Shown here piece by piece: positions 46,359 to 49,137 of a stretch of 64,000 nucleotides of DNA. The stretch comes from an uncultured Cytophagales bacterium (GTDB lineage: Bacteria; Bacteroidota; Bacteroidia; Cytophagales; Thermonemataceae): NCBI GenBank assembly GCA_938002655.1, contig CALLAC010000008.1, positions 1-64,000 on the forward strand, read 5' to 3'. The notes beneath the pieces are model-generated. The model had not been told where the DNA came from and did not search any database. It worked only from the letters and a program-made list of their open reading frames with translations. Position 1 is the stretch's first letter, and each line of letters begins with the position of its first letter. The position numbers and the translations under genes were made by a program.

Positions 46359-47645
46359 TTAGTGCTTAAATTGAACCTCTTCGGTAGAGCCTTTGAGTGC
46401 TACAGTAGAAGTTTCACCTCCTGTAATTACTTCTTGGACGCTATCAAAGTATCCTACTCCTACAAAAGACTGATGTTTTACAGCTTTGAAGCCTTTGCTT
46501 TGCAGAGCAAATTCTCTTTGTTGCAATTCGGAATAGCCTGCCATACCTTTTTCTTTGTAGGCAAGAGCCAATTCAAACATACTTGTATTGAGAGCATGAA
46601 AACCTGCAAGCGTAATAAACTGAAACTTATATCCCAAATCTGCAAGGTTTTCACGGAAAGAAAGCATTTCTTTTTCGGAGAGTTTGGCTGCCCAGTTGAA
46701 AGAAGGTGAGCAATTGTAAGCAAGCAATTTATTTGGATATCGGGCGTGAATAGCTTGAGCAAATTCGCGGGCTTCGCCAAGGTCGGGGTGGCTAGTTTCC
46801 ATCCAGAGCAAATCGGCATAAGGAGCGTAGGAGAGCCCACGACTAATGGCTTGCTCAATACCACATTTTACGTAATAGAAACCTTCGCTGCTGCGTTTTC
46901 CTGTAATGAAGGCTTGGTCGCGAGGGTCTATATCGCTGGTGAGCAAGTTAGCGGCATCGGCATCGGTGCGAGCAATAATTATGGTAGGCACGCCCATTAC
47001 GTCTGTGGCAAGCCTTGCGGCAATGAGTTTTTGGATAGCTTCTTGAGTAGGGACGAGCACTTTTCCGCCCAAGTGTCCACATTTTTTAGCAGAGGAGAGT
47101 TGGTCTTCAAAATGAACGCCTGCGGCACCAGCTTCAATCATCATTTTCATGAGTTCGTAAGCATTCAGGTTGCCTCCAAAGCCTGCTTCGGCATCAGCGA
47201 TAATGGGTAGAAAGTAATCGATATTGCCTTCGCCAGTGAGATGCTGGATTTGGTCGGCACGTAAGAGGGCTTTGTTGATGCGTCTTACTACTGCAGGGAC
47301 ACTATCAGCAGGATAAAGGCTTTGGTCAGGGTACATTTCACCTGCAAGATTGGCATCAGCGGCTACTTGCCAACCGCTTAGGTAAATAGCGTCTAGGCCT
47401 GCTTGTGCTTCTTGGATGGCTTGGTTGCCTGTCAGGGCTCCCAAAGCGGCTACGTAAGGTTGCGTATGGAGTTTTTTCCATAACTTTTCTGCTCCTTTAC
47501 GGGCTAGGGTGTATTCAATTTGTAACGAACCTGATAGTTTTACGACATCTTCGGCAGTGTAGGGCCGTTCAATCCCTTGCCAACGAGGGTTGCTTGTCCA
47601 GTCTTGTAGAAGTGCATTGATTTTGTCTTGAAGAGTAGTAGCCAT
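46359..47645 (-). CDS. aceA: Isocitrate lyase
   Basis: Cleaves isocitrate to glyoxylate and succinate, the first step of the glyoxylate shunt for growth on acetate or fatty acids. 428 residues from the ATG at 47645 ([12 protein letters not shown]). Diagnostic segments: [12 protein letters not shown], the catalytic [39 protein letters not shown], and [16 protein letters not shown] with YNCSPSFNW. Malate synthase is not in the window. A strong promoter with a nested dyad lies just upstream, suggesting a dedicated repressor or activator. Confidence 0.97.
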
Positions 47646-47694: not shown

Positions 47695-47725
47695 CAAAAA
47701 TAATATGGCGAAAAATATAAGTCAA
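47695..47725 (-). promoter_or_regulatory. Promoter of aceA
   Basis: Minus-strand TTG (47725-47723), 20-bp spacer, TATTTTTG (47702-47695), 50 bp before the ATG. The -33 box abuts the AGCGAAATTTCGCT palindrome. Confidence 0.6.
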
Positions 47726-47755
47726 GCGAAATTTCGCTAAAATTTTTATTTTCGC
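47708..47755. promoter_or_regulatory. Nested-dyad candidate operator at the aceA promoter
   Basis: An inner 14-bp palindrome AGCGAAATTTCGCT (47725-47738) is flanked by outer arms GCGAAAA (47708-47714) and TTTTCGC (47749-47755). Both pairs share the same axis at 47731.5. It covers the -33 region, so a bound regulator would control aceA transcription. Confidence 0.65.
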
Positions 47756-47805: not shown

Positions 47806-47830
47806 AAGAAAAAAGGGCTTATCGCCCTTT
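47806..47830 (-). terminator. Intrinsic terminator of hisB
   Basis: On the minus strand AAAGGGC - GATAA - GCCCTTT is followed by TTTCTT, starting 4 bp after the hisB stop. Compact and convincing. Confidence 0.85.
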
Positions 47831-49061: not shown

Positions 49062-49135
49062 CGGGATGTAGCACAGCCAGGTAGTGCACTCGTTTAGGGT
49101 GCGAGGGGTCGCTGGTTCAAATCCAGTCATCCCGA
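49062..49135 (+). tRNA. tRNA-Pro (anticodon AGG)
   Basis: A complete 74-nt cloverleaf: acceptor CGGGATG / CATCCCG, D stem GCAC / GTGC, anticodon stem CTCGT / GCGAG with loop TTAGGGT, variable loop GGGTC, T stem GCTGG / CCAGT with loop TTCAAAT, discriminator A. The anticodon at 49096-49098 is AGG with G37. CCA is not encoded (CAA follows). Proline identity fits the body and the anticodon; A34 is unusual for bacteria. Confidence 0.93.
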
Positions 49136-49137
49136 CA

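Follow-up and report, generated by a model that had tools for sequence, protein, structure and literature searches.

A Nested Dyad at a Cytophagales Isocitrate Lyase Promoter Is a Predicted, Phylum-Wide Operator for a RamB/PrpR-Like Regulator

INTRODUCTION

The isocitrate lyase gene (aceA) of an uncultured Cytophagales bacterium is preceded by a palindrome, nested inside a wider one, that runs into the promoter of the gene. The question raised by this locus is whether the palindrome is an operator and, if it is, which protein would bind it and which genes would be controlled. The original prediction, made from the letters of the DNA, proposed that a regulator of the glyoxylate shunt binds there as two dimers and pointed to regulators of the ScfR/RamB type. 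The locus was examined here in the window (the whole 64,000-nucleotide stretch analyzed, positions 1 to 64,000 of contig CALLAC010000008.1, assembly GCA_938002655.1), in the genome, and in related Bacteroidota. The site, its conservation, its promoter geometry, its two-gene distribution, and its co-occurrence with a regulator were all computed. The reading that we favor, with a probability of about 85%, is that an ScfR/RamB-like regulator responsive to acyl-CoA would use the dyad as its operator and control aceA and the malate synthase gene aceB in trans. A search of the open literature returned no paper on the control of the glyoxylate shunt in Bacteroidota, although subscription papers were mostly outside its scope and absence is not proven; queries with the letters of the motif gave either no papers or ones on unrelated matters.

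RESULTS

The gene predicted to be regulated, aceA (46359 to 47645, minus strand, with its ATG at 47645), encodes a 428-amino-acid product that matched the isocitrate lyase profile NF011645 above its cutoff in a profile search (E = 1.1e-227). The predicted core operator, identified from its letters and its conservation, is the perfect 14-bp dyad AGCGAAATTTCGCT (consensus AGCGAANNTTCGCT) at 47725 to 47738, and it is flanked by the outer half-sites GCGAAAA on the gene side (47708 to 47714) and TTTTCGC on the distal side (47749 to 47755), none of the three being assigned to a strand. Each arm lies 18 bp from the core, all elements share a single axis at 47731.5, and a repeat search of the window recovered an inverted repeat of 24+24 nt at 47708 to 47755; the coordinates originally given for dyad, arms, and axis all proved correct. 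The core and the −33 box of the aceA promoter, TTG (47725 to 47723, minus strand), overlap by a single base, the last of the core and the first of the box. The −7 box TATTTTTG (47702 to 47695, minus strand) lies 22 bp past the dyad and 50 bp from the aceA ATG, and the gene-side arm falls in the spacer between the two boxes. With 54 occurrences of GCGAAA in the window against 53 expected, the half-site is ordinary and the arrangement is the unusual part; when the whole nested dyad is scored over its 24 specified bases, the runner-up in the window has 8 mismatches. The window also carries a tRNA-Pro gene at 49062 to 49136 (plus strand), with a reported anticodon of AGG.

Absence of the dyad from the aceA promoters of close relatives had been named as evidence against an operator. 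In fact, all three congeners (3/3) retain the complete four-arm dyad before aceA, in flanking DNA that has diverged, most plainly in genome G002, and the dyad before aceA is kept in other families too; species with an aceB-aceA operon have it before aceB instead. In a sample of 57 nonredundant regions upstream of aceB or stand-alone aceA, a motif-blind enumeration of all hexamers ranked TAGCGA, CAAGCG, AAGCGA, and AGCGAA at the top, with AGCGAA present in 50 regions against 7.4 expected. The consensus AGCGAANNTTCGCT was found with at most one mismatch in 49 of the 57 regions (39 exact and 10 with one mismatch), against an expectation of 0.01 from shuffled sequences. Among these 49 dyad-bearing regions, a −7 box of the form TAnnnTTG stands 21 to 22 bp past the dyad in 38, and the dyad runs into a −33 TTG in 36. 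Of all the evidence, this fixed spacing points most clearly to action of the site at this promoter, and, judged by its conservation, the dyad is very probably a real control site kept throughout the phylum.

The outer arms behave differently from the core, as the inner dyad is almost always retained in relatives but the arms only sometimes, at 17 or 18 bp. A gene-side arm at exactly 18 bp was found in 12/49 dyad-bearing regions (other offsets in 1) and is missing in most Flavobacteriia, while a distal arm was found at 17 to 18 bp in 14/49 and at 34 to 36 bp in 11/49. These recurring offsets mark the arms as genuine but optional half-sites with a pitch of about 18 bp. The description of the site as symmetric to the base is therefore exact here but does not extend to relatives, which keep mainly the inner dyad; in the genomes compared, perfect four-arm symmetry is a feature of this genus. 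As far as the letters tell, the 14-bp inner dyad suffices for a single HTH_3 dimer, and the 18-bp pitch would fit two dimers, side-by-side dimers, or one tetramer alike.

In a pattern search of the 2.64-Mb genome, the 12-bp core GCGAAATTTCGC occurred exactly at two places only, before aceA and before aceB. The latter gene, encoding malate synthase A, is unlinked to aceA on a different contig, and its dyad, a core without outer arms, is centered 50 bp 5′ of the ATG. The search upstream of malate synthase that had been suggested as a check thus found the exact inner dyad, and the scatter over random genomic positions that would have spoken against an operator was not seen. The consensus AGCGAANNTTCGCT has three exact sites in the genome, the third lying within the asnB coding sequence, and the nearest one-mismatch sites lie within coding sequences. 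With exact sites only at aceA and aceB and the others in coding DNA, the regulon of this organism looks like two genes on present sequence evidence. The one-mismatch coding sites, one of which falls where an acyl-CoA ligase gene encodes the conserved GYGLSETSP region, were taken as chance occurrences, and a site with a single outer arm at C3:112921, where a reading frame resembling a dipeptidyl peptidase begins, was likewise set aside. No site was found at pckA (PEP carboxykinase) of this genome, and no operator was found at its regulator gene, described below.

Other Cytophagales (loci L221, L222, L224, L226, and L223) have exact sites before pckA (3 genomes), the fructose-1,6-bisphosphatase gene (1 genome), and the pyruvate carboxylase gene (1 genome), so that their gluconeogenic regulon looks broader than the one found here. 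In families f35 and f53 (loci L196 to L199, L213, and L214), the regulator and operator face the gene of an AMP-forming acyl-CoA ligase rather than aceB. These additional targets in relatives (pckA, fbp, pyc, and the acyl-CoA ligase gene) are genes for growth on acetate and fatty acids. Several single observations accompany these sites. Before the pyruvate carboxylase gene, the operator occurs twice, 26 bp apart. In family f48 (L210 and L211), it is an adenylate kinase gene that lies opposite the regulator and an exact operator. The sequence AGCGAATATTCGCT, at position 1501 of loci L170 (G006) and L171 (G007), is conserved between these two species of a single genus and immediately precedes a phosphoserine phosphatase/phosphoglycerate dehydrogenase-like gene, a possible extra target.

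At most Bacteroidota loci, a divergent gene for an HTH/IrrE/ScfR-like protein of about 490 amino acids faces aceB across the dyad. The expectation of a regulator of the ScfR/RamB type was borne out, as an orthologue is present in this genome, where it is unlinked (G000:C12:92479-93930, equivalent to L141:4477-5931, minus strand), and in relatives it usually points away from aceB on the other side of the site. The protein encoded here has an N-terminal HTH_3 domain (PF01381, E = 9.7e-17, above the cutoff) and a central IrrE/M78 domain (DUF955; PF06114, 54.1 bits versus a cutoff of 22). The C-terminal ScfRs domain (PF09856, cutoff of 24 bits) scored 13.2 bits here and 22.6 in a Flavobacterium orthologue, and a whole-genome search with PF09856 at an E value of 0.001 gave no match. 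The Corynebacterium glutamicum RamB profile NF038139 aligned to residues 142 to 460 with an E value of 5e-15, yet its 55 bits fall far below the equivalog cutoff of 700, which indicates an ScfR-like relative and not a RamB equivalog. Four cysteines (C361, C448, C451, and C456, the last three arranged as C448-X2-C-X4-C456) are nearly invariant in an alignment of 23 orthologues, and a simple pattern search found CX2CX4C in 25 of 27. Searching the solved structures by sequence returned HTH domains only, and fold comparison was therefore used. An AlphaFold2 model of the Bernardetiaceae orthologue L049 (mean pLDDT, 83.5) matched the PrpR structures 6cz6, 6cyj, and 6cyy with a Z score of about 25 over about 300 residues, the runner-up group being CapP and IrrE/PprI at a Z score of about 14; among solved structures, PrpR is thus the best fit to the orthologue model. 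In this genome, a patatin-like gene (L141:5934-6983) immediately precedes the regulator gene in the same orientation, and a second, partial patatin-like frame is found nearby (L141:22-444).

The association of this regulator with the site was assessed in 28 further genomes of the order Cytophagales that carry aceA. An exact site was present in 18 of the 21 genomes with the regulator and in none of the 7 without it (hypergeometric P of about 1e-4), although six of these seven belong to one family and the test is thus not independent. Two of the three regulator-bearing genomes that lack an exact site have one-mismatch sites before aceB. By coordinate comparison, 23 of 31 exact sites lie at aceB/aceA or at the regulator locus, with at least one such site in each of the 18 genomes. 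In a phylum-wide panel, a site with at most one mismatch lies upstream of 34 of 40 regulator genes, and several of these have neither aceB nor aceA within the kilobase read. The regulator and the site also covary. A lysine in position 2 of the S-x-S-Y recognition helix always accompanies a dyad with CG at its center (23/23), while other residues never do (0/37). On the tree, residue and dyad center switched together once, on the branch leading to the Flavobacteriales, and the switch counts as one event, not 23, so that a Fisher test on these counts (P = 4e-17) was discounted. The co-change, as a single event, is consistent with contact between protein and DNA.

DISCUSSION

The closest known systems are PrpR and RamB of Mycobacterium tuberculosis, from the ScfR/IsaR family, class 2 RamB of Paracoccus denitrificans, and the C. 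glutamicum RamB whose profile match is given above. Like M. tuberculosis PrpR/RamB (PMC6765138), the Bacteroidota regulator has the domain order HTH, IrrE-like, and a putative GAF-like/ScfR C terminus, and glyoxylate and methylcitrate genes are controlled in that system. The likeness extends to the fold (Z score of 25 for the orthologue model) and to four cysteines at nearly equal positions, which correspond to the [4Fe4S] ligands of PrpR, Cys363 and 447-C-X2-C-X4-C-455 (PMC6765138), and from which we infer a cluster in the regulator; identity is, however, about 16% in the structural alignment. The published PrpR/RamB site is TTTGCAAA-N-TTTGCgAA, with a middle of GCAAA-N-TTTGC and a 1-bp gap (PMC6765138), whereas the site here reads AGCGAA-NN-TTCGCT with a 2-bp gap, has extra half-sites at an 18-bp pitch, and is fixed in its phasing to a Bacteroidota −33/−7 promoter. 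The TTTGCAAA boxes of the published operator were not encountered, the core here being AGCGAANNTTCGCT. The statement that the known sites of such regulators differ from this one thus holds for the letters as a whole, although, by reading of the letters, the half-site GC(A/G)AA is common to both. In P. denitrificans, class 2 RamB is an ScfR member whose gene is divergent from aceB-aceA and which activates the glyoxylate operon from two boxes that are separated by 18 bp and lie 82 bp 5′ of the malate synthase gene (PMC10370305). The family, the target operon, the gene arrangement, and the repeated boxes are shared with the Bacteroidota system, while the two-box layout and the demonstrated activation set it apart; the sites were compared by layout. 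CoA esters lock PrpR into tetramers (PMC6765138) and alter how Paracoccus RamB oligomerizes (PMC10370305). On the computed evidence, the operator role is strongly supported, and the site may be described as a new variant for a known kind of regulator.

The likeliest mechanism, in our analysis, is an ScfR-family repressor that would be released by CoA esters. The HTH_3 domains of a regulator dimer would bind the 14-bp core, abutting and overlapping the −33 box, and further subunits, from an adjacent dimer or within one tetramer, would use the half-sites at the 18-bp pitch. Protein bound at the −33 edge and, via the gene-side arm, in the −33/−7 spacer would keep RNA polymerase out. With an intact [4Fe4S] cluster, a buildup of acetyl-CoA or a related CoA ester would shift the regulator to another oligomeric state, leading to derepression or activation of aceA and aceB. 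That the protein binds here, and with which ligand, cluster, oligomer, and sign, is an inference from computed features, the sign coming from the position of the core over the upstream −33 edge and of the gene-side arm between −33 and −7.

The repressor sign is uncertain because Paracoccus RamB is an activator. It is possible, if somewhat doubtful, that the same regulator at the same operator is mainly an activator which, loaded with a CoA ester at the −33 edge, recruits RNA polymerase. HTH_3 activators are able to work from a position at the −33 edge, the dyad reaches no further into the −33 box than its first base, and the absence of the downstream arm in most Flavobacteriia would suit this reading. 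There is precedent in the family in both Paracoccus RamB and M. tuberculosis PrpR (PMC10370305, PMC6765138). However, a subunit bound at the 18-bp arm of the Cytophagales, between −33 and −7, should hinder the polymerase.

It is improbable that another protein binds the dyad and that the ScfR-like gene is a neighbor by history only. The unlinked position of the regulator gene in this genome, with no dyad of its own, would fit such a neighbor, but the operator accompanies the regulator to loci without aceB, such as that of the acyl-CoA ligase, and does so in genome G072, where the regulator gene is apart from aceA. In addition, the exact site is absent where the regulator is absent, and the helix residue and the dyad center change on one and the same branch. 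A structural element, either a hairpin in the transcript or a terminator for hisB, is very unlikely, even though inverted repeats can form hairpins and the 3′ end of hisB is located upstream in the same orientation. The dyad is 5′ of the promoter with which it is phased and should thus be outside the aceA transcript, hisB is followed directly by a separate inverted repeat (47812 to 47830), and the dyad is also found in divergent intergenic regions. The view that AT-rich chance could hardly explain the symmetry was upheld, as a chance palindrome, for which the ordinary frequency of GCGAAA in the window might speak, is refuted by the 49 of 57 regions against 0.01 expected and by the two exact sites at glyoxylate genes.

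Most likely, then, the site is the landing place of a RamB/PrpR-like sensor of CoA esters that switches aceA together with malate synthase. In a broader view, to which we would give roughly even odds, the regulator would represent an undescribed, phylum-wide branch of Fe-S acyl-CoA sensors that acts as a switch from sugar to C2 growth through an operator grammar of its own, a core joined to the −33 box with half-sites at an 18-bp pitch. Its regulon would range from two genes here up, in other Cytophagales, to the glyoxylate shunt with PEP carboxykinase, fructose bisphosphatase, and pyruvate carboxylase, and the recognition residue and dyad center would have changed together in the Flavobacteriales. 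Since the predicted regulator, operator, and promoter geometry hold phylum-wide, the proposal is directly testable in tractable flavobacteria, and the operator may serve as a marker for genes of C2 growth in genomes and metagenomes.
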